DNA from: a virus
IMG/VR virus record: IMGVR_UViG_3300009370_002305
Span: 1-45,719 of that record
Direction: 5' to 3' (one strand)
DNA length: 45,719 nucleotides
Shown: piece after piece, positions 20,331 through 41,737 of the stretch
Numbering within the stretch: the stretch's first letter is position 1
How the letters are laid out: the number at the start of each line of letters is the position of its first letter
Program-made: the position numbers and the translations under genes
Notes under the pieces: generated by a model
What the model saw: the letters and a program-made list of their open reading frames with translations, nothing else
Databases searched by the model: none
What the model was told of the DNA's origin: nothing

Positions 20331-20825
20331 TTAAATCTCCTTTATGTCAATAGGGACAGGGCTTCCCTTTTCCCTCTTTGGAATCAATACTTCTAGCAGA
20401 CCGTTCTTCATAGAAGCCTTTGCTCTAAGCAGATTAAAAGTGGGATTTATAAAATATTTTGCTTTAAAGTTTCTACGGGCAATTCCTCTCACGATCATGC
20501 CCCGCTGAACCCCTATCTTAGGGGCTTTGGCAGGATACTCGTCCTCTGATATGTCTTCTAACTCACTTGTCTCAACCTTATTTCCAAGACCGCTTATGCA
20601 AAGCTCACCATTATTAACAGATACCGCAACATCTCCTGGAGAGTATCCTGCCAAGGCAAATGCCATATGAAATCCGTCCTCATCACACCACTGGTCACAC
20701 CTTGGGAACTTCCCTGCTGATGAAACCTTTTTGTGATTTCCAACGTCTCTATAAAACTCATCATCAGCCCATAATAAATCAAGAATTCTGCCTGGTACAG
20801 ATACTCTATTCAACAATTCTTTCAT
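20331..20825 (-). CDS. Hsp20/alpha-crystallin small heat-shock protein
   Basis: An alpha-crystallin-like domain covers about residues 45-155. It starts with FHMAFALAGYSPGDVAVSVNNGELCISG, which matches the LPGFxxEDIxVxVxxxxLxIxG pattern. It ends with the strand ASMKNGLLEVLIPKREKG, matching AxxxxGLLxIxxPK. The C-terminus PVPIDIKEI carries an I-x-I-like anchor. Such proteins hold unfolding proteins as oligomers. Together with phage GroEL it suggests a phage-encoded folding set. The start at 20825 overlaps the membrane-protein gene by 20 bases and has a GAGG site. Confidence 0.9.
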   Translation of the reverse strand: MKELLNRVSVPGRILDLLWADDEFYRDVGNHKKVSSAGKFPRCDQWCDEDGFHMAFALAGYSPGDVAVSVNNGELCISGLGNKVETSELEDISEDEYPAKAPKIGVQRGMIVRGIARRNFKAKYFINPTFNLLRAKASMKNGLLEVLIPKREKGSPVPIDIKEI

Positions 20826-21138
20826 CGGTTTCCTCTCCGTCTTCTAAGTAAGTTTCTAAAAAAACACTTAATGTGTTAAATGATTCTACCACACTTGAAG
20901 CTCCCCAGCTAAACAAACTTGAAATAGAAGCTCCCATAATTGGATTTATATCATAAAAGCAGGAGATGAGGAGGCCAACCCAAAAACCAGAACACATAGT
21001 GCAGCTAAGAAGCTTCTCTAAATACTCTGACCTTGAACTAATGAAATCTCTAATTGGCTCTAATATAGAACTAAACACAACTAGCACCGTTATGCCTGTA
21101 CAGCCAAATATAAAGACTAACAACTCTACTAAACTCAT
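20806..21138 (-). CDS. Small membrane protein with CxxCxGFW motif (DUF1360-like)
   Basis: A first hydrophobic segment spans about residues 3-24 and a second spans about 44-64, with a possible third at 66-82. The second contains LLSCTMCSGFWVGLLISC, resembling the CxxCxGFWVG signature I associate with DUF1360 small membrane proteins. The C-terminus is acidic and cytosolic-looking. GGAG precedes ATG 21138. Upstream lies the 116-base spacer with the promoter-like element, so this is probably the first gene of a short transcription unit covering Hsp20, KH, HNH and HU. The precise function is unknown. Confidence 0.75.
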   Translation of the reverse strand: MSLVELLVFIFGCTGITVLVVFSSILEPIRDFISSRSEYLEKLLSCTMCSGFWVGLLISCFYDINPIMGASISSLFSWGASSVVESFNTLSVFLETYLEDGEETDERIVE

Positions 21139-21214
21139 GAAACAGCTCCAACTAAGTTATATATACTTAAAAATCATATTAATATCAATATATTTTGAAT
21201 AGATACAAGTGTGT

Positions 21215-21241
21215 TTTTGTCAATCTTTTGCCCAAAATTTT
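21215..21241 (-). promoter_or_regulatory. Repeated promoter-like element, copy 1
   Basis: On the minus strand this reads with core GGGCAAAAGATTGACAAAA, preceded by an AT-rich block. It lies in the 116-base spacer upstream of the membrane protein/Hsp20/KH operon. It contains a perfect TTGACA, with only a weak -10 candidate (TATTCA, 16-base spacing). A second copy at 24460-24486 matches at 24 of 27 positions and has the same orientation and a similar pre-gene location. A role as a phage promoter or regulator site is inference. Confidence 0.4.
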
Positions 21242-21254
21242 AAAGAAATTCAAA

Positions 21255-21905
21255 CTATTTAACCGACAAGCACAGGCTCATTACTGCCTGTTGAATTTCG
21301 AACCCTGTCAGTGTGGGCTTCTGCTCAAGTTTAATAGGCTCTGTCTTTTCAAGGAGGCCATTTGCCTGTGGCGGCGCGAACCGAGGCCTCAAGCCCTTAC
21401 AGCCACCTGTGTTACAAAGGCTTTGTCCTCCGAGAGAAGAACTTACACTGCTTTTCTGATTAATTATTTTGACACTTCTCTTTTTGCTCATAGAAGACTG
21501 CGCCATTACCTTCCCCTCTTCATCATATAGCAATAAAGATATTGTATGACGATCTTTATTCAAAGTAATGATCGGCTGCAGCATCCAATGATTATTCTCA
21601 ACACTACAGCGTAAAGGACTCCTTCTATAATCGCACTCTCCATATAAAAACCCTATATTCAAATCATTATATATAGAAATATTTTTATCTATTAGATGTC
21701 CATGCATATTCATATATACAAAAATCTCTTCTTCGTTATTAAAAAAAGCTTTAGAATCTGTCTGTTTTATTATAGGCTTCTGTATATATATCTTTTCATG
21801 AATTGAGTCATTAACTATCAACTCTGGAACACCATCCTTATCCAAAGGCAAGTCTTCTGCAAGTACACTTCCCGATAAAATTAATCCAAATATAATTGGC
21901 AACAT
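21255..21905 (-). CDS. Exported hypothetical protein with signal peptide
   Basis: The N-terminus MLPIIFGLILSGSVLAEDL is a clear Sec signal peptide with a VLA-ED cleavage site near residue 16-17. The n-region is short and carries no Lys or Arg. The mature part is beta-rich and has a CDYRRSPLRC pair and a CNTGGC pair, which may form disulfides in an oxidising compartment. It therefore probably acts outside the cytoplasm of an infected cell. GGGGG stands 5 bases before ATG 21905. No family is recognised. The exported character is well supported by the sequence; a function such as superinfection exclusion or lysis control would be guesswork. Confidence 0.75.
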   Translation of the reverse strand: MLPIIFGLILSGSVLAEDLPLDKDGVPELIVNDSIHEKIYIQKPIIKQTDSKAFFNNEEEIFVYMNMHGHLIDKNISIYNDLNIGFLYGECDYRRSPLRCSVENNHWMLQPIITLNKDRHTISLLLYDEEGKVMAQSSMSKKRSVKIINQKSSVSSSLGGQSLCNTGGCKGLRPRFAPPQANGLLEKTEPIKLEQKPTLTGFEIQQAVMSLCLSVK

Positions 21906-21921
21906 TTAAACCCCCATTAGT

Positions 21922-22284
21922 TTATTGCTTGTTTTTGCAAGGAGCCTCCAGCCCCTCTATCATCAGGTCGCACACGTTACACTTGAAGGGAGAGGCTAAG
22001 AGGTCCTCATTCTCAATATAGTTGAAAGTTATTTCCTCTCCAACTTTAATGTCTCTTAAAGCCACAACGTGTACACCATCAATTTTGGCCGATGGATCAC
22101 AAGAGTGATTTATGTAACTGCCGACCTCGTCCTCTACATGAATTCCATCTTTGATGCGAATAGACGTTCTAGTGGGGCTTTCTAATACTAATCGTCCAGA
22201 CAAAGAGTATATGACCAGCCCTTCTTCATATGCGCAACCTGCATACACGCCTCCGAAGCCTCCTATTCGATTTATATAAACCAT
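21922..22284 (-). CDS. Minimal SET-domain protein (putative lysine methyltransferase)
   Basis: At 120 residues it is about the size of the smallest known SET enzymes, such as chlorovirus vSET. The N-terminus has GGFGGVYAGCAYEEGLVIY, matching the SET start GxGVFA...GxxI. The key SAM and substrate motifs follow in order: YINHSCDPSA (NHSCDP at 59-64) and GEEITFNYI (83-90), the usual RxIxxGEExxxxY end. A tail PFKCNVCDLMIEGLEAPC carries Cys102, Cys105 and Cys116, reminiscent of a post-SET zinc segment. It would transfer methyl groups from SAM to lysines. The target could be a phage HU-like protein or a host protein; this is unproven. The start has a GGGGG site. Confidence 0.88.
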   Translation of the reverse strand: MVYINRIGGFGGVYAGCAYEEGLVIYSLSGRLVLESPTRTSIRIKDGIHVEDEVGSYINHSCDPSAKIDGVHVVALRDIKVGEEITFNYIENEDLLASPFKCNVCDLMIEGLEAPCKNKQ

Positions 22285-22288
22285 ACTT

Positions 22289-23023
22289 TTACCCCCTAAT
22301 CTTTCTGTATGCTATAACCGAGGTTGGCCACAGGTCTGTCGCCATATCTAAACATGCTCTTGCCACCTGTTGTATCTCCCACTGTGCGCCCTCATGCGTG
22401 CGTAAGTCTATGAACTTTAATAAGTTATTTAAGTTCACACTTCCATAATATTCTGTATAAAGATTTTGAGGCAATACTCCCCTGGCTTGCTCTCTGCATA
22501 TTCCTGCATCAAGCAGTTCGTCATAGAGGCGCAAAGACTGCTCATGGTGGTCTTTTATTATCATAGAAGCCGGAACCTGATGTGGCACAGTGGACTCGGG
22601 ATTCTGCCTTATAATGGCAGGATTAATCAAAGAGTCTAAATTACTAGCCTGTCTGTTAGACTTATGCTGTGTCCTAAATGAATTTGGCTCATAAAACTTT
22701 ATATTAACATCAGTATATCTTCTGCTTATTTCGTTATAAGACCAAGTTCTATGTCTATGATGCTGAGACCTTACGAAGAGTGGCACTACAAACTTAAAAG
22801 TTGCTCCACAATGCTCAAGCGTACTCGTGTGTCTGTGCTTGATTAAATACTGAATAAGCCTTTCGTCCTTATCTGATAATACATCAGAACCAGAGTCTCT
22901 GCCAAAAGAGACTCTGGCAGACCTAACAATAGTCGCATCAGATCCCCAATGTTGTATAAGCTGCACCCTTCCTATGTTATCTCCGTATAACATCTTAGAT
23001 ATATTTTTATTTTCATCATTCAT
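22289..23023 (-). CDS. thyX: Flavin-dependent thymidylate synthase ThyX
   Basis: The ThyX signature RHRxxSxNExSxRY is complete as RHRTWSYNEISRRY at residues 90-103. The surrounding segments also fit: TSTLEHCGATFKFVVPLFVRSQ upstream, and EQARGVLPQNLYTEYYGSVNLNNLLKFIDLR near 185-215. It converts dUMP to dTMP using FAD, NADPH and methylene-tetrahydrofolate, and supplies thymidylate for phage DNA synthesis. The length of 244 residues is normal. The start at 23023 is 3 bases past the DUF3310 stop and has an AAGG site. The enzyme looks intact. Confidence 0.97.
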   Translation of the reverse strand: MNDENKNISKMLYGDNIGRVQLIQHWGSDATIVRSARVSFGRDSGSDVLSDKDERLIQYLIKHRHTSTLEHCGATFKFVVPLFVRSQHHRHRTWSYNEISRRYTDVNIKFYEPNSFRTQHKSNRQASNLDSLINPAIIRQNPESTVPHQVPASMIIKDHHEQSLRLYDELLDAGICREQARGVLPQNLYTEYYGSVNLNNLLKFIDLRTHEGAQWEIQQVARACLDMATDLWPTSVIAYRKIRG

Positions 23024-33389: not shown

Positions 33390-35978
33390 TTATTGGGGTG
33401 TGGGCTTATAAGCCTTCTGCCAAACGCCAAGAGCTTCTTCTTTCTTCTTAGACCATCTGCTTCTGCCAAGCTTATCTGGTCGCAAGAACCTGTTGCCACT
33501 CGTATAGTCTTCTAGTTTATTATGTGCTTGAAGAACCGGCTTCAAAAGCTTTCCAGCCCTAGGCCCTGCCTCATTAACAGCAGATGCAATCTCCTTTGCA
33601 GAAAGCTGATCTAACCATTCAGAGGCTCCTTCTACGCCCTCTAGCCCTGCATTGCTACCTCTTCGAGAAATCGGGAAGAGAGCCTTCTTATCTCCGTCCA
33701 TACCAATGTAAAAAATCTTTGTCGGATCTGCCTTTGTTATCCATAGAGTTCCAACCTCATTGTTTCTGGCAAAGTTACCTCCCTCTCCGTGTGGTGGGAC
33801 CAGGAAATATTCCTTAGAATTGCCCTGACTAACGCCAGTCTCCTTCTTATCCTTCTCATCATCTTTGGCATCCTCAAGAACCTTTGCAGCCTCTTGTTCA
33901 GCAGCATAAGCGGAATAAGAAAGATCTTTTTCAATTGCACCAGTTTTGTCAGCCGCCAAGTCTGCCTCATAAGCTTTAATGGTTTGTGCCTTTGCTCTGG
34001 TCAAGAAGTAATCCAAATGTGTTACCTTCTTTGTCTTGTCATCTTTTACCAAAGGAAACGTTATTGTGGAAACCTTTAAGTTTTCTCGATTAGCATACTT
34101 TGTAGTATCGGCTGGAGCCATTAAGTAAGCTGTTAATATTCCATCAGTTGGCGCAGTCTTAGCCTGTCCACCAGACTCTCTAGCACCCCCTCCACCAGAC
34201 TCTCTAGCACCCCCTCCACCAGAAGTGTCTACATCAAGTCCCTTGTCTGAGGATCCTAACAAGCCTCCTGTCGGAGCTTTTATATTTTTCTCCTCAGTAT
34301 ACTTATGCCCTACAGCCCTCCAGATGGAGGCTATATGCTTGTTTGTATGAGACGCATTACTTCCAGTGTCCAACTTTGTATCACCAAAGCCCTCTCCCTT
34401 GAGGTGACTTGCTATTCTAGCGGCTCCATACTTGTCATTTGCCCACTGCCTAAAGGCTAAGCCATCTTGTTGAGTTTTCAAAACATCACCCATATTAGTT
34501 CCAAGCATATTCTTTTCCCCTGTATATTTCTTAGTCGAGCGGGTCGAGCGTTTTGGTCTCTTAACTGTCGGATCGCCACTCTGGTCTACCGGGACATCCG
34601 TGGCCTTCTTGTTTCCTCCATCTTGGTCCGTCGTTACCCATGTTGCTACCGGCTTATCTTCAGGTTTCGCGAACTTTCTCAGGCTATTTGATTCCAAAAA
34701 AGAAGCACTCTTTTCCCAGCTTGTAAGGCCAAGAGCCTTTGCTGCCGACATAGCGGTAGCGTTCTCCTTGCACTTATCCCCCATACATAGTTGAACCCAC
34801 ACTTCTCCATCCAATTTAGAGAAAGCCCAATAACCCTGATCCGAACCTTGTTTTCCGTACCAATCAAACTTATACCGAACGACTGGATCTCCGCCCTCTA
34901 TATATTTTGTACCACCCAATACTAAGTCTGTTTGCCCATATGACAGTTTATTCTTTTCATGTTGTTTCAGAAAGAAGCTCCATAGGGCCTTGCCATCGGT
35001 GTCTATAAAGCTTGGAAACAGTGGTCTGTTTTCTACAAACTCTGTCCTCACTCCGGCCAAAGTGCCATTCCAGTCGCCGCCTGGATGACCAGGACCAGCA
35101 AGCTTCACTTCGTTCTCCCCCGCAGAGGCATATTGGATGGCCTCGTTTAACTTCCCAAGGATGCGATCATAAAACTCTGCCCAAGATTCTTTCTCCCCTT
35201 TATCGTCATCATCTGTGCTGCCATAGGCATCTTGGTAGTAACGAATCAAAGCATTGACCGTCGCCTCATTCGTCCACCAGTTTTCAGATTGCTGTTTCCA
35301 GATTTTTATTTTTTTGTTTTTTGATATATTTTCAACAAAGGCCTTAAGCCCATCAAACACAGCCTTCAAAGCTATATCTGCCGATCCAGCTGTTTTTACA
35401 AAATTTCCCAAAGCCAAATCTCTGACTATGTTGCTCTGCTTTATATGCCCAGAAAGCTTTAAGGCTTTCGATAGTTTGTTTAATTCTCTTTGCTCTGTGT
35501 TCATGTTAGCCCCTAATTTTGGAATCCTTCTTCTTCTTAATCTACCGTCTTCTGAGTATAAGAAGCTAAAGTAATCTTCTGACTCAGTTTTAGATGGAAT
35601 ATTAATAGGTTTTCTTTTATGTAATCTTGATATATTAACTGGCGGTCTACTCTCTTCTGTTTCTATATTACTCTCTGCTCCAAAGAACTTTTCAGCAACT
35701 TCTTTATCTTGCTGTTCATACTTAATTCTCTTTCGGAAACCCTGATGACCACCGGGACTTCCGGCTGGAATACCGAATAGTCCCAGGGCTAACTTTTCTA
35801 TCTTTTCTTTTCTCTTTCGCTTTGTCAAGGTTTTGCCCTGAGCTTCATCATCATCTTCTACATAATGAATTATATTATCAGGTGAGGGATGGGTTATCAC
35901 TGGAGGTCTTTCATGATACGTCATTAAGTCAATAACGGACAACTCTTTTTCATCTTCTGACGGCTCATCCAACCCCAT
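33390..35978 (-). CDS. Large hypothetical protein with internal shared module, about 862 aa
   Basis: I choose ATG 35978, preceded by GGGGG; the frame from 36017 begins with TTG. The first 158 residues are charged and disordered-looking. At residue 159 (ATG 35504, MNTEQRELNKLSKALKLSGH, ending ...GNFVKTAG) a divergent copy of the module shared with three neighbours begins. It stands directly behind an AGGGG site, so a second 704-residue product is plausible. Later parts contain a mixed domain with tryptophan-rich segments (NWWTNEA, LWSFFLKQH) and a Gly-rich linker with two GGGGARES units encoded by a 24-base tandem repeat near 34171-34222. No enzyme motif is recognised. A virion or injected protein is possible from context. 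Confidence 0.8.
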   Translation of the reverse strand: MGLDEPSEDEKELSVIDLMTYHERPPVITHPSPDNIIHYVEDDDEAQGKTLTKRKRKEKIEKLALGLFGIPAGSPGGHQGFRKRIKYEQQDKEVAEKFFGAESNIETEESRPPVNISRLHKRKPINIPSKTESEDYFSFLYSEDGRLRRRRIPKLGANMNTEQRELNKLSKALKLSGHIKQSNIVRDLALGNFVKTAGSADIALKAVFDGLKAFVENISKNKKIKIWKQQSENWWTNEATVNALIRYYQDAYGSTDDDDKGEKESWAEFYDRILGKLNEAIQYASAGENEVKLAGPGHPGGDWNGTLAGVRTEFVENRPLFPSFIDTDGKALWSFFLKQHEKNKLSYGQTDLVLGGTKYIEGGDPVVRYKFDWYGKQGSDQGYWAFSKLDGEVWVQLCMGDKCKENATAMSAAKALGLTSWEKSASFLESNSLRKFAKPEDKPVATWVTTDQDGGNKKATDVPVDQSGDPTVKRPKRSTRSTKKYTGEKNMLGTNMGDVLKTQQDGLAFRQWANDKYGAARIASHLKGEGFGDTKLDTGSNASHTNKHIASIWRAVGHKYTEEKNIKAPTGGLLGSSDKGLDVDTSGGGGARESGGGGARESGGQAKTAPTDGILTAYLMAPADTTKYANRENLKVSTITFPLVKDDKTKKVTHLDYFLTRAKAQTIKAYEADLAADKTGAIEKDLSYSAYAAEQEAAKVLEDAKDDEKDKKETGVSQGNSKEYFLVPPHGEGGNFARNNEVGTLWITKADPTKIFYIGMDGDKKALFPISRRGSNAGLEGVEGASEWLDQLSAKEIASAVNEAGPRAGKLLKPVLQAHNKLEDYTSGNRFLRPDKLGRSRWSKKKEEALGVWQKAYKPTPQ

Positions 35979-36531
35979 GAAGAGCCCCCGTACTTGTTCC
36001 GCGCTGACCCCTCGCAAGAGCTGCCGACTGATCGGTAATCTTATATCCTACTGTTCCGGTCGGAGCAGCGGGTCTTTGAGGCTGTTGTGCCCCCTTACCT
36101 CCCAGTATTGGAGCCACCGTTGTGCCCTCCGTCTTAGTAGCCGTTGGAGTCTTTGGAGGAGACTTATATGTTCTCTTGTTCTTGGGGTCATTAGATTGAA
36201 CAAACTGGACCGCAGATGCTTTTGTAGAATTAATTGATGACTTGAAAGAATCCCAATTTTGTGGCACCGTCATATCTATCAGCACATTGTCCTTTCTAAA
36301 CTTCGGAGCAACAACAGCTCCTGCTGCTTTAACAACAGCTTCAAACGAGGTAGTCATATCCGCCCAATTATTTGATTTCAAAACTAAATTTTGCTCTTTA
36401 AAATAATCTTCAAGAGCAGTCTTTAAAGCTGCACTTTGAGCAATCTTAATAAGAAAACAGACTTCATCTGCGAAGCCTTTTTGTCCAATCTTGCATAAGT
36501 AATTTGCCAAGTGTAACAGCCGAGACTGCAT
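35965..36531 (-). CDS. Hypothetical protein with N-terminal shared module, 188 aa
   Basis: The first 33 residues (MQSRLLHLANYLCKIGQKGF... ending LIKIAQS) are a divergent copy of the module found in its neighbours. A helical part follows (residues 35-75). The C-terminal 80 residues are a Pro/Thr/Lys/Gly-rich, probably disordered tail ending in ARGQRGTSTGALHGVG. GGAG stands 6 bases before ATG 36531. It overlaps the start of the 862-residue ORF. The body has no recognised domain. The module suggests that this protein goes to the same place as the other carriers. Confidence 0.8.
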   Translation of the reverse strand: MQSRLLHLANYLCKIGQKGFADEVCFLIKIAQSAALKTALEDYFKEQNLVLKSNNWADMTTSFEAVVKAAGAVVAPKFRKDNVLIDMTVPQNWDSFKSSINSTKASAVQFVQSNDPKNKRTYKSPPKTPTATKTEGTTVAPILGGKGAQQPQRPAAPTGTVGYKITDQSAALARGQRGTSTGALHGVG

Positions 36532-36533
36532 AA

Positions 36534-37517
36534 CTATCTCCTAACTATGCCATAATATCTCGAAAAATCACTTGCCAACTTTTTAAAAGAAGGCCTTTCA
36601 TTAGCTTCGACAGTTTGCTGGTCCACAGCCTTGTCTTCCTCATCTTTAGGAGGCCCAACTATCGCTTGACCTTCGGCAGACTCAGGAGGAACATCTGTAG
36701 CTACAGCAGTTTCAGACTTATCATCCCACACTCTCATCTGAGCGATTCTCGTATCAACCTGACTTGAGTCAAGACCCTCAACCGCCATCAAAGAGTCTTT
36801 CAAAAACTTGCTCCTGGCTGGATCTCTCATAACTTCTTCTCTATATTTAGAGCCTTCCTCTTTGAACATTCTCACTGACTCTCGATATAAAGGCATATTC
36901 TCTTTTGTATGTTCTGCAAGCCAAGCGTCATAGCTCTCTTTATCCACAGGAGTTTTGTCCATTGACTCTCTGTGCTTTCTGTTTACACTTTGCACAGTCT
37001 CTTGGTTTCTGGACATACCCGCTCTTACCCTGTCGATATTCTTTCCCCAAAAATCAAACATCCCCCTCAAAGTTGGATAATAGCCATTCTTTTCTGCATA
37101 CAAAGTCCAGGCCGATTGATTATTAGAAAGAGTAATTCCTGCCGGAACAATTGCAGCCTCTTCTTCTCCTGACAACTTTGCAAACTCTTCAAATGCAGTG
37201 GAGGTTCCACTGACCCAAGCTGAAGGCACAGACACTGCCTTCATTAACTCCTCTGGATTTGTTCTAACTGAGTGATCTAATTTAGTTGCATCAACTATTT
37301 TCTGATCGAGATTGAGGTCCATCATCAAAGATGCCAGATAAGCATTAAACTCTTGCAAGGTCTTAGGCTTTGATTCAGCCCAAGTATAAGTGCCTCCAGT
37401 ATCAGGATTAATTCCAGTTACCTGCGCCTTCTTTAGAATACTATCAAGCTTATCTGCCAAATCTCTGTGACCAATTTGGTCTAGATGATTTGCTAGTTTA
37501 ACCAGCCCTTCTCTCAT
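36534..37517 (-). CDS. Hypothetical protein with N-terminal shared module, 327 aa
   Basis: It begins MREGLVKLANHLDQIGHRDL with the module ending SILKKAQ, nearly identical to the internal copy in the neighbouring zincin ORF. The rest is helical and charged, with a Lys/Glu/Arg-rich middle (about residues 165-235) and an acidic Asp/Glu-rich linker before a short basic C-terminus (FKKLASDFSRYYGIVRR). AGGGG stands 6 bases before ATG 37517. The high DNA identity of its first 49 coding bases with the neighbour suggests recent duplication or conversion. Function unknown. Confidence 0.8.
   Translation of the reverse strand: MREGLVKLANHLDQIGHRDLADKLDSILKKAQVTGINPDTGGTYTWAESKPKTLQEFNAYLASLMMDLNLDQKIVDATKLDHSVRTNPEELMKAVSVPSAWVSGTSTAFEEFAKLSGEEEAAIVPAGITLSNNQSAWTLYAEKNGYYPTLRGMFDFWGKNIDRVRAGMSRNQETVQSVNRKHRESMDKTPVDKESYDAWLAEHTKENMPLYRESVRMFKEEGSKYREEVMRDPARSKFLKDSLMAVEGLDSSQVDTRIAQMRVWDDKSETAVATDVPPESAEGQAIVGPPKDEEDKAVDQQTVEANERPSFKKLASDFSRYYGIVRR
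37453..37501. repeat. Direct DNA repeat encoding the shared module, copy B
   Basis: These 49 bases match 37845-37893 at 46 positions, with 392-base spacing and the same orientation. They encode the LVKLANHLDQIGHRDLADK part of the module at the start of the 327-residue protein. Confidence 0.85.
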
Positions 37518-37519
37518 GA

Positions 37520-38416
37520 CTATCCCCTATATACCTTGCCGCCGCTATAAGTAAACTCACCCGACATTAGCTTTGCCATCTTAGCAATCCTGTCTGAAGC
37601 TTCTGAAGTTGAAACCATGATGCCATCAGTTTCATCCGAAGCAGCATCCCAAGCTTCATCTAAAGCCATATCAGCTTCCGGGTCCACTGGCGGATCGCCA
37701 GAAACCTCAACAACAGCTTCTGCTACCGAGTTTGCCTCTGCATCACCAGGCTGTTCCTCACCCGTGTAATCATCCGTCTGTTCTGCACCAAAGTCTACAG
37801 CGAAGTCTAGCTCATTAGCAGTCTTCAACACAGCATCTAGCCTGTCTGCCAAATCCCTATGACCAATCTGGTCTAGATGATTTGCTAGTTTAATTAATTC
37901 TTTTTTCATTTTAAGTTCTCCATTAGCACTTAGTTTAACAAAAGCTACATTACTTTTATTATTTTCATTAATAATAGATCTAGAAGCAAAGACTGGAGTA
38001 AAAGAATTCTCTTTCGCCTCCGCAACAGCCTCTCCTCCTGGAAAGTTATGATCTGTATGATCATCAATATGTGCCAACTCATGAATTAGAGTCTTGGCAA
38101 CCCTAGCTATAACTTCCTGAAACGCAGGATCTGAATCCTGCATTTGATTTATTTTAGACAACATACCTTGTGGCCATTCTTTTTCTAAATTTGTAACAAC
38201 AATATTGATAGAATCAAGTATTCCATCATCATTTATATCACCTGTAGACACAAAAGCTTTAGCTCTTGCATCAGCCCCACTAGGCGTTGTTTGATGAAAC
38301 TTTATACGGCCTGGAGAGCTTATAAGCTGACGAACATTATTAGGCAAATTAGTAATGCCTCTCAGTCCAGATAAGATCTTTGGCCAATAAGATGGATCTG
38401 CAGTTTTGTTAATCAT
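37520..38416 (-). CDS. HExxH zincin-like domain fused to shared module, 298 aa
   Basis: The first 169 residues look like a small zinc metallopeptidase. VAKTLIHELAHIDDHTDH carries HExxH at 112-116 with a further HxxDH, followed by FPGGEAVAEAKENSF with a possible Glu ligand. At residue 170 (ATG 37909) a full copy of the shared module starts, MKKELIKLANHLDQIGHRDL ending AVLKTAN, directly after a GGAG site. It is followed by an acidic tail. So the ORF may yield a fusion and a separate 129-residue C-terminal product. ATG 38416 has no clear ribosome binding site. The peptidase call rests on one motif. Confidence 0.8.
   Translation of the reverse strand: MINKTADPSYWPKILSGLRGITNLPNNVRQLISSPGRIKFHQTTPSGADARAKAFVSTGDINDDGILDSINIVVTNLEKEWPQGMLSKINQMQDSDPAFQEVIARVAKTLIHELAHIDDHTDHNFPGGEAVAEAKENSFTPVFASRSIINENNKSNVAFVKLSANGELKMKKELIKLANHLDQIGHRDLADRLDAVLKTANELDFAVDFGAEQTDDYTGEEQPGDAEANSVAEAVVEVSGDPPVDPEADMALDEAWDAASDETDGIMVSTSEASDRIAKMAKLMSGEFTYSGGKVYRG
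37845..37893. repeat. Direct DNA repeat encoding the shared module, copy A
   Basis: This copy lies inside the 298-residue zincin-like ORF, 15 bases downstream of its internal ATG. It differs at three bases from the copy at 37453-37501, and two of the three look silent. Confidence 0.85.
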
Positions 38417-38419
38417 ATA

Positions 38420-41400
38420 TTAAACACTTCTAATAATAGAATTTTTATAAGGTATTTCTTCAAAGATATCATACATTTTCTCAAGATCTGCACTTAAGTT
38501 GTGCTGCCCCAATAGCACTCCCAAAGCAAGTATCTTGTCCGAACTTGTCTTCTTAAACCCAAGTTCCATTATTATTTCCGCTATTCTTAAGTTAATAATC
38601 TTTGACCTAGCTTTTTGGATTCTTTTCTTTGATACGCCAGATTCTCTAAGTTTTTTCTCGCTCTTTCCTAAATACCTCAATATCTCTGTTACAGTATCTT
38701 TATCTGGACTTTTATACTCAATATCAACTTCCCCAAAAAGACTTCTTAATATAGACTCTGCCTCTAAATACTTGTCAACACTAAGCTCCGAGTCCCTCTG
38801 CTCCTGCCGCTCTTTCTTTTTATCCCTTTCCTCCTTAAGCCTTTCATAATAAATGCGCTTATTTTGCATCGGAGTCAATGAATAATCATAATCCCCCTTC
38901 TTCTTTACAGGGAACATATCTCTTAGCTTACCAATGTTCTCTTCAGTAGCAGGAATTTCAAACACATCAACAGACCCAATAGACCCATCAGATGCTTCAA
39001 TTTGAAAGCCCATCTCATTAGCTCCTAAAGCTTTTGGCATTTCTACATAGAGCTTATTTTTTTTCACCTTATTCTGTATAGCGGAGCCTCCTGATTTGAG
39101 CATATAAATATTTTGTCGCCCCATCTTTTGAGCTGTATTTATAGCGCTTATGAGAACTAAGTAAGGATAGTTTTGTGATATAACTTCAATATGCTTCTTA
39201 GCATCATCAACATCTTCCTTTGAATACTTTTCCCTTAAGGCATATAAGCCTTCGGGTATTACCCCCAACTCGTCTAAGCGCTTCCTTATCTTCAAAGCTC
39301 TCTCTCTATATATAGATGATGACTCTTTGTAGGCTATAATCTTTTCTTCTTCAGTTGATGAATATGAAGATGCAACACTATCAGCCTGACTTGCCCTTTC
39401 CTTGTAAGACATAAAGTCATCCTCTGTCATTATCTCCTCGTCTTCTAACGGAAAAGAATACTGATCAGGATCGCGGCCATATCTAGGCCTTCTTAGCTCC
39501 ACTCCATCTTCGTATACAAGATTATATTTAGTTCCAGTCTTAACCTCTCTGTATGGAACACCGCTATATGCAGTTCTGGTGGGAGGCATCCTCTTGAAAG
39601 TTCTGTCTAAAACTACAGGATAATCTGACTGTATTTGTTCAATCATAACCTCTCCTCCATCTGCAAAGCCAAGTCTTTTCCCGAAAACCGGAAAAGAAGC
39701 CAATGCCCAAGCGGAGGTAAATCCAGAACTTCCTATGTTTGTGTGGCCCACGAAGTCTGCTGCACTAACTAAATTTTTATTTATATCATACAACACTAAA
39801 GAAGGGGCTCTGTTATCTTGAGTAAGCTCATACCTAACAGCATTTTCCGTTAAAATAGCCGGTCTTTGAGCATCCTGATAACCAGAATACTTTATCCTAG
39901 ACCCGATGATAGGTTCTACTTCAACATCATTATGAGAATTATCATATATCTCCTTTGCTTCGCCTAACTCTTTTACATGCTCTAATCTTTTTAGAGCAAA
40001 CTCGAAAGGCTTAGGGATTAAAGCGTAAGGGCTGTCATCACTATAGTGTGTATAAAAATGCGAAAAATAAGAATCACTATCATTCTTCTCTATCACTATC
40101 CTTAAAACTTTCTTCATCATTGCGTTCATCCTTCGGTATGTATCTCTCTCAAGAACGCTCTGAGCCTTCCACTTCATTTCCAAATAACATTTATAATTCT
40201 TTTCTAAATTTTCAGAAAGATTTTCAAACCATATATTTGCAAACCTCTCCCTCCAATGAGGGGCCATTGAATCTCTATTATAAAGTAATTCAATTATATT
40301 TACGCAACTATTTTCAGCGGCACTATCAATCAATGCTTGAAAAATCTTACCAGAGTCCTCATAAGTAAACTCAATTAAGTCTCTCCATTCAGAGTGCATG
40401 TCTTCTAGCAGCCCCGATAGAGAGAACTTCCATAAAGCAAACAACTTATCAGGAGGGAACGCAGCAGCAATGTCTTCCTCTCTTATAATTGTTTGATATA
40501 CCGTGGCCACATCTTTTTTGATTTGGTCATCATTAAATATATCTACGGTGTCGCTCATAAAGTGACCGCCTATGATATAGGCCCGTATAGCTAAGGATCT
40601 ATATTTCTCCTTTGACTCTTCTGGAACCTTTTCGTCTATAAGAGTCTTGATTGAGGAGCCATAGTGGCTATCTTTAATATTTAAGAAATATGCTGGATAT
40701 TTATTAGCTAATATTTTTATAACAGAATCTAATAAGTCTGGATATTTCTCTTTGTATTCTTGAAAAAAAGGAATGATAAAGTTATCTTTAAAAAACCATT
40801 CCTTATCTGCGTCGGGCCAACCGGCAGAGTTATCGCTAAAGACTTCAACCATACTAGCGACCATCTTCTTTTCATACTTTGGCAAATACTTTCCGACCTG
40901 TAGCCTTTGCAGAGCCGCTAAATCGCCAGAAGAAACAGCCTTCTTTACCTTCTCAATATATAGCTCTTGATTGTTAGCTATATCAATATCATATCCAGAA
41001 TTTATTTCGTTAACAAATATAGCTTTCGCTTTGTCGCTTAATTCAATTAAGTCTTCAGAAGCAATAATCAATGTCGAAAGGGTGTCTTTATAATACCCCC
41101 TCTTTTCTACAACAGCATCTGCAACTTTATCTAGCCAGAGGGTTAGAGCTTCAGATACCATAGACCTAACTTCATTACTAAGAGACTGCACACCCCTAGG
41201 AACAACCTTCTTAACCTCACTTACAGTATCATAATCAATGCTCTCTATATTCTCAATATAGGTCCCAACTTCATCTAATGTTCTTAAAAACTTATTTAAA
41301 AAATATTGACTCATAATAGAGTCTGTATACATAACATAATTATAATAATCTGGCCCACCAGAAGTCTTGTCGTCTAAAGCGCTTATTACAGACGGATCTT

Positions 41401-41737
41401 GAAGAACTGTAGACATGTTTGCTGCGTCCAAACCCCTGATTGCTCGAACGAAATTAGAAGCATTTGACTCTTCTAGCATCTTTTTGTAAAAAGATGGCAA
41501 CTGCTCAAGGCTCTCATTTACCAACCAGTGTATTATGGCCTTCGGATTTCTAATAGAATCAAAATCCTCACTCATTATATTCTCAAAAGCTTGTGCTAAT
41601 TCCTGATTATCCGAAGGTTCTTCTTCATATTCTGGAAATCTTTTAGATAACATATAGCTTACAAAAAGCGCCTCATCCTCCTCAGATGCTGCTTTTAATA
41701 AATTAATTATATTTTTAAGTCTAACTTTAGGAATCAT
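38420..41737 (-). CDS. Large hypothetical protein with IQSD-type polyvalent-like domain, 1105 aa
   Basis: The first 600 residues are helical and repeat-like with no recognised motif. Near 697-706 is VMIEQIQSDYP. The phrase (I/V)EE(I/L)QSDW marks a domain common in very large phage and mobile-element proteins described as polyvalent. The matching later part, YPYLVLISAINTAQKMGRQN (about 850-880), also fits that domain. Residues about 950-990 form a highly charged Lys/Glu/Arg helix (ERLKEERDKKKERQEQRDSE). Such proteins are thought to be packaged and injected. That role is inference. The start ATG 41737 has only a weak AGAG site. Confidence 0.75.
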   Translation of the reverse strand: MIPKVRLKNIINLLKAASEEDEALFVSYMLSKRFPEYEEEPSDNQELAQAFENIMSEDFDSIRNPKAIIHWLVNESLEQLPSFYKKMLEESNASNFVRAIRGLDAANMSTVLQDPSVISALDDKTSGGPDYYNYVMYTDSIMSQYFLNKFLRTLDEVGTYIENIESIDYDTVSEVKKVVPRGVQSLSNEVRSMVSEALTLWLDKVADAVVEKRGYYKDTLSTLIIASEDLIELSDKAKAIFVNEINSGYDIDIANNQELYIEKVKKAVSSGDLAALQRLQVGKYLPKYEKKMVASMVEVFSDNSAGWPDADKEWFFKDNFIIPFFQEYKEKYPDLLDSVIKILANKYPAYFLNIKDSHYGSSIKTLIDEKVPEESKEKYRSLAIRAYIIGGHFMSDTVDIFNDDQIKKDVATVYQTIIREEDIAAAFPPDKLFALWKFSLSGLLEDMHSEWRDLIEFTYEDSGKIFQALIDSAAENSCVNIIELLYNRDSMAPHWRERFANIWFENLSENLEKNYKCYLEMKWKAQSVLERDTYRRMNAMMKKVLRIVIEKNDSDSYFSHFYTHYSDDSPYALIPKPFEFALKRLEHVKELGEAKEIYDNSHNDVEVEPIIGSRIKYSGYQDAQRPAILTENAVRYELTQDNRAPSLVLYDINKNLVSAADFVGHTNIGSSGFTSAWALASFPVFGKRLGFADGGEVMIEQIQSDYPVVLDRTFKRMPPTRTAYSGVPYREVKTGTKYNLVYEDGVELRRPRYGRDPDQYSFPLEDEEIMTEDDFMSYKERASQADSVASSYSSTEEEKIIAYKESSSIYRERALKIRKRLDELGVIPEGLYALREKYSKEDVDDAKKHIEVISQNYPYLVLISAINTAQKMGRQNIYMLKSGGSAIQNKVKKNKLYVEMPKALGANEMGFQIEASDGSIGSVDVFEIPATEENIGKLRDMFPVKKKGDYDYSLTPMQNKRIYYERLKEERDKKKERQEQRDSELSVDKYLEAESILRSLFGEVDIEYKSPDKDTVTEILRYLGKSEKKLRESGVSKKRIQKARSKIINLRIAEIIMELGFKKTSSDKILALGVLLGQHNLSADLEKMYDIFEEIPYKNSIIRSV

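Follow-up and report, generated by a model that had tools for sequence, protein, structure and literature searches.

Four minus-strand ORFs in the window, a 45.7-kb stretch of DNA from an uncultured virus record, carry a hairpin-like module. The module comprises roughly 30 helical residues and is predicted to fold as a helix-turn-helix. The features of the locus are as follows; labels such as G001 denote related phage records.

37520-38416, minus strand: 298-aa ORF with a putative zinc metalloprotease (HELAH) at its N-terminus, followed by module copy 1, an acidic middle and a C-terminal tail
37918-37921, minus strand: Shine-Dalgarno GGAG for the start at 37909, with an 8-base spacer; conserved across orthologues
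37814-37909, minus strand: module copy 1, MKKELIKLANHLDQIGHRDLADRLDAVLKTAN, after the internal ATG at 37909; profile E 5e-17
37520-37594, minus strand: common C-terminal tail, DRIAKMAKLMSGEFTYSGGKVYRG, from the tail profile
36534-37517, minus strand: 327-aa carrier ORF (ORF reading)
37422-37517, minus strand: module copy 2, at the N-terminus of the 327-aa ORF; profile E 8e-17
36534-36587, minus strand: related weak C-terminal tail, FKKLASDFSRYYGIVRR; E 1.8e-5 if included in the seed, missed when held out
35965-36531, minus strand: 188-aa carrier ORF (ORF reading)
36436-36531, minus strand: module copy 3 (weak), at the N-terminus of the 188-aa ORF; profile E 0.013, fits the strict signature
33390-35978, minus strand: fourth ORF, 862-aa reading from the ATG at 35978; two genes in G010 and G011
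35510-35514, minus strand: Shine-Dalgarno AGGGG for the start at 35504, with a 5-base spacer; equivalents in G001, G005 and G006
35400-35504, minus strand: module copy 4 (divergent), MNTEQRELNKLSKALKLSGHIKQSNIVRDLAL, after an internal ATG; separate gene start in G010 and G011

An earlier note on this DNA had described a common module in these four adjacent ORFs and had interpreted it as a targeting or packaging tag. The observation is confirmed, with all four coordinates (37909, 37517, 36531 and 35504) being right, while the interpretation is partly supported. Copy 1 at 37909 is near-identical to copy 2 at 37517, while the copy at 36531 is weak and that at 35504 the most divergent. The copy scores come from a profile built on the modules of the relatives, which missed the copy at 35504. 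The 36531 copy fits a strict signature, [LIVM]..[LIVM]A..[LF]...G....AD.[LIV], for which 20 shuffles of the non-carrier proteins gave 0 occurrences. The 35504 copy fits a relaxed signature only, and its orthologues in G006 and G018 fit the strict one. We regard copy 3 as weak but real and copy 4 as a divergent relative. For the fourth ORF, an 875-aa frame, the ATG at 35978 appears the more likely start. Searches of the window's carriers against Pfam and PHROGs gave no convincing match.

The earlier note had proposed a profile search for further module carriers, and many more were found in relatives. Module matches were present in 25 of the 25 records examined. In 2.1 Mb from about 20 uncultured phage contigs, whose genes were called by a simple home-made caller, an iterated profile recovered 154 module copies in 140 proteins, with at most 19 per contig; against shuffled proteins, its best E-value was 2 or above. 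A degenerate DNA pattern for L-A-x2-L-D-x2-G-x4-A-D-x-L-D, run against a viral collection, returned 64 stretches, part of them chance matches. Records G003 and G005 (L076-L087, L112-L117 and L165-L171), obtained from separate metagenomes, have an overlap of 104 kb with 100% identity and therefore represent one phage or nearly identical phages; together they cover at least about 340 kb and contain about 27 module copies. When the module consensus was searched against 50,697 catalogued phage records, the only match was at chance level (E 7), in an RNA phage. Of the 7 stretches that the pattern search of bacterial genomes gave, just 3 encode the motif in an open frame, a number that chance could explain. 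One bacterial match, LATSLDAAGQHGYADLLD in an Armatimonadetes MAG (L186), is encoded close to the beginning of an open frame of 190 codons and may be a chance match or a phage remnant.

Among the 154 copies, 93 stand at an N-terminus, 43 inside a protein and 18 at a C-terminus. The proposal that the module is always placed to become an N-terminus is not borne out, as shown by the C-terminal copies and by the internal copies outside the protease family, most of which have no nearby start bearing a Shine-Dalgarno sequence. In 71% of the N-terminal copies, a class that takes in internal copies with their own start, a Met stands exactly 7 residues ahead of the first conserved L of the LA pair. As for the two internal starts of the window, the GGAG and AGGGG proposed as their ribosome binding sites are both present in the sequence, and both starts are conserved in relatives. 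At the copy-4 locus, G010 and G011 carry two separate genes, the second starting MN(T/I)EQREL; therefore, 35504 corresponds to a gene start in these relatives.

At 37909, all 10 orthologues of the protease-module ORF keep the Met ahead of the module and its Shine-Dalgarno sequence. The residues around this Shine-Dalgarno sequence vary among orthologues (GELK, GDYN, KETN, GRNLN), and in G008 it lies in another codon phase. An equally high Shine-Dalgarno score was found at 8.8% of internal ATGs versus 67% of called gene starts, the latter figure coming from a caller that itself favours starts with Shine-Dalgarno sequences. The short form from 37909 is laid out like its neighbours, with the module, an acidic middle and the common tail. 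In G004 and G007, the protease bears the module near its own C-terminus, an arrangement in which an internal start is unnecessary. The conserved internal start, together with this fused layout, suggests that the fused and the short products are likely both functional. In the window's lineage, the metalloprotease gene would probably yield the protease-module protein at full length as well as a short module protein. In the protease itself, H112, E113, H116 and E129 (HExxH plus a third acidic ligand) and a downstream GE.xxA are invariant in the 10 orthologues; the best Foldseek match of the putative metalloprotease had an E-value of 2.5, with a mediocre model. A 344-aa carrier of G003 was considered as a peptidase M15 from its likeness by eye and was rejected, Pfam giving no support.

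Two genes of G003 revealed how the module spreads. They are identical at 95 of 99 bases in a stretch that opens with the start codon and closes where the module does, and their flanks are unrelated on both sides; the match covers exactly the module, so the module moves as a cassette. A repeated unit in G005 takes in a gene end, the junction and the module that follows. Between genomes, only 42% of identical residues are encoded by identical codons, indicating that selection acts on the protein. These comparisons show that this is a real protein module, exchanged among genes as a DNA cassette of ~95 bp under protein-level selection, and placed mostly at N-termini but at C-termini too. The same data bear on a translation-start cassette, in which the DNA would be kept for the start codon and early codons and not for the protein. 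Such a cassette could explain why the start codon is where identity sets in between the two recently copied G003 genes and why Met recurs at the same offset in most N-terminal copies; however, the low codon identity between genomes largely refutes it, and copies at C-termini, like most internal ones, do not act as starts, so that we consider it highly improbable.

The module could also be the slowly evolving part of tandem paralogues whose ends were conserved while their middles diverged. Carriers are indeed adjacent to one another far more often than expected (36 pairs versus 8.7), and neighbours at the window's locus have a C-terminal tail in common as well. Such a gene-family expansion is nevertheless improbable, since the DNA identity of recently copied pairs ends at the module edges and the module occurs at C-termini and internally. 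The tail, A-x-L-M-S-x-E-F...V-x-R-R, is absent from the earlier note. A tail profile made from the protease orthologues alone recovered the held-out G005 neighbour (7e-12) and one G004 carrier (0.009), and its remaining matches are weak.

We compared the carriers with the head genes, which are clear in G011: terminase, portal, head maturation protease (encoded, phrog_18299, E 7.8e-13) and major capsid protein. Carriers adjoin the terminase and in several genomes sit between the portal and the protease; in G014, they are packed between the portal and capsid genes. They are enriched around the head block, with an odds ratio of 3.6 (p 7e-8) at a margin of 8 kb; this margin is one of four tried, p is 0.04 with no margin, and the orthologues counted are not independent. 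Several accessory carrier clusters are distant from the head block, which speaks against a packaging role.

The gene directly after the protease and before the major capsid protein encodes an acidic protein that ends in two tandem hairpins. We refer to it as the scaffold-position protein, a name given from gene position only, which is that of the T4 scaffold gp22. Its hairpin motif, L-x-K-[IM]-A-x2-[LF]-x3-G-x4-A-D-x-V, has the same register as the module. In AlphaFold models, the module and the scaffold-position hairpins are both helix-turn-helices with the turn at the equivalent glycine, the two tandem hairpins being predicted with confidence above 90 in the core. Outside the carriers, the strict signature matched 12 times, with none expected from shuffles; 8 of these matches fall in the scaffold-position family, and of the other 4, two are copies 3 and 4 of the window or a relative and two lie near N-termini. 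Conversely, the best matches of a scaffold-position profile outside its own family are module carriers, while the profile-profile scores between the module and these hairpins are modest taken singly. A relationship between the module and the tandem hairpins is supported but not proven by these sequence comparisons. A PDB search with the module sequence and Foldseek searches with the protease-module and scaffold-position models found no significant relative. The head protease, which ranked high in a profile scan, was rejected as a module relative because the aligned segments are unlike the module. Outside the module, a GVEVGGxTSxTGESVGG segment occurs in both the scaffold-position protein (L110:13144-13968) and the protease-module protein (L106:13229-14158) of G011, as if a piece had been exchanged.

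Because the hairpin resembles that of a probable capsid-scaffold protein, the module is perhaps an address label for head cargo. We lean slightly towards the reading that it is a portable helix-turn-helix tag that delivers its carriers into the forming phage head. Through the module, a carrier would dock to the scaffold core or to the inside of the capsid, like engineered P22 scaffold-fusion cargo, and a diverse acidic cargo, the putative metalloprotease included, would be packaged and possibly injected. We infer the packaging, the scaffold or capsid binding and the injection by analogy with known systems. More tentatively, and with doubt somewhat outweighing belief, a copy of the scaffold hairpin may have become a mobile packaging tag, passed from gene to gene as a cassette, that brings at least two dozen unrelated proteins into the head. 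If the packaging reading is right, a set of probable head-packaged proteins in an uncultured giant-phage lineage could be read from sequence alone, and the module would be a natural, compact cargo signal.

Instead, the module might be a hairpin of general docking use, unrelated to packaging, whose partner in the phage is for example a chaperonin, a membrane site, a replication compartment or an assembly hub. Carriers with enzyme domains, which include a tRNA-nucleotidyltransferase-like protein and a DUF5591 protein, would suit this role, as would the many carriers away from the head genes. In addition, the scaffold-position model is similar to TPR-type hairpins, whose binding partners are many, in its spacing and its weak Foldseek hits; TPR chains are among the top hits, none of them significant, and a PDB sequence search gave no match. 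However, no non-carrier family is closer to the module than the scaffold-position protein, and the head genes have an excess of carriers nearby; we therefore regard a docking role of this kind as rather unlikely.

Delivery into the head would follow a logic known from T4, whose internal proteins share only an N-terminal leader directing packaging and whose ip genes occupy two separate loci (PMC12373910, PMC3012670). As with the T4 capsid-targeting sequence (CTS) of IPI-III and Alt, one short leader, mostly N-terminal, is found here on otherwise unrelated, fast-evolving proteins, and a head maturation protease is encoded in the same genome. The likeness to T4 internal proteins drawn in the earlier note gains support from the enrichment near head genes and from the scaffold-position hairpins, and the tag may act like the T4 CTS by way of a scaffold-like helical hairpin. 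In contrast to the CTS of 10-20 residues, the module is about 30 residues long, hairpin-shaped, also C-terminal or internal, without a cleavage motif and without a sequence match in catalogued phages. The idea that its K-x-A end marks a processing site is not supported, since K.A after the module was seen 26 times versus 33 expected, and alanine occupies the two module-end positions in only 46% and 37% of copies. T4-type [LI]xE sites after the module were no more frequent than expected (56 versus 57.6), although this motif is that of T4 and may differ from that of this lineage's protease. No conserved cleavage site was found after the module in the module set, and module cleavage is not supported by these sequences.

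In P22, cargo proteins enter particles when fused to the C-terminal part of the scaffold, the site of an essential helix-turn-helix (PMC9962691). The scaffold-position protein likewise has a small C-terminal helix-turn-helix, with similar hairpins on other proteins; unlike in P22, the hairpin is naturally spread over many genes, and the likeness is one of layout, with no homology claimed. The head propeptides of SPN3US and phiKZ are N-terminal as well and have been proposed to direct inner head proteins to the prohead, but they are mostly >100 residues long and cleaved, whereas the module is far shorter and shows no evidence of cleavage. By major capsid protein, the nearest catalogued relative is Bacillus phage G (51% identity). 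The module and the scaffold-position family were not detected in phage G, Tunturi_5 or LR745208, which were chosen as catalogued relatives by capsid protein, in whole-record searches that had no positive control there.

Several other proteins drew our attention. The tRNA-nucleotidyltransferase-like domain of G003 (110494-112848; L081:15494-17848) is joined to a HAD-like region; the protein ends in a module, and a degenerate one can be made out by eye between the domains. In a G002 protein (155144-155623; L096:3144-3623), the module runs straight into a lipoprotein-signal-like stretch, IMIALCFAVAATGASGC, which is an unusual arrangement for a secreted protein. The window also encodes a 1105-aa protein (38420-41737) with an EQIQSDYP stretch, which we take to resemble polyvalent injected proteins; Pfam gave no support for this assignment. 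Finally, two GroEL-like chaperonins per phage were observed in G001 (20753-22357 and 76479-78134) and also in G002, G004, G005, G007, G009, G010 and G011; in these phages, one gene lies near head and replication genes and the other beside the counterpart of the window's locus.
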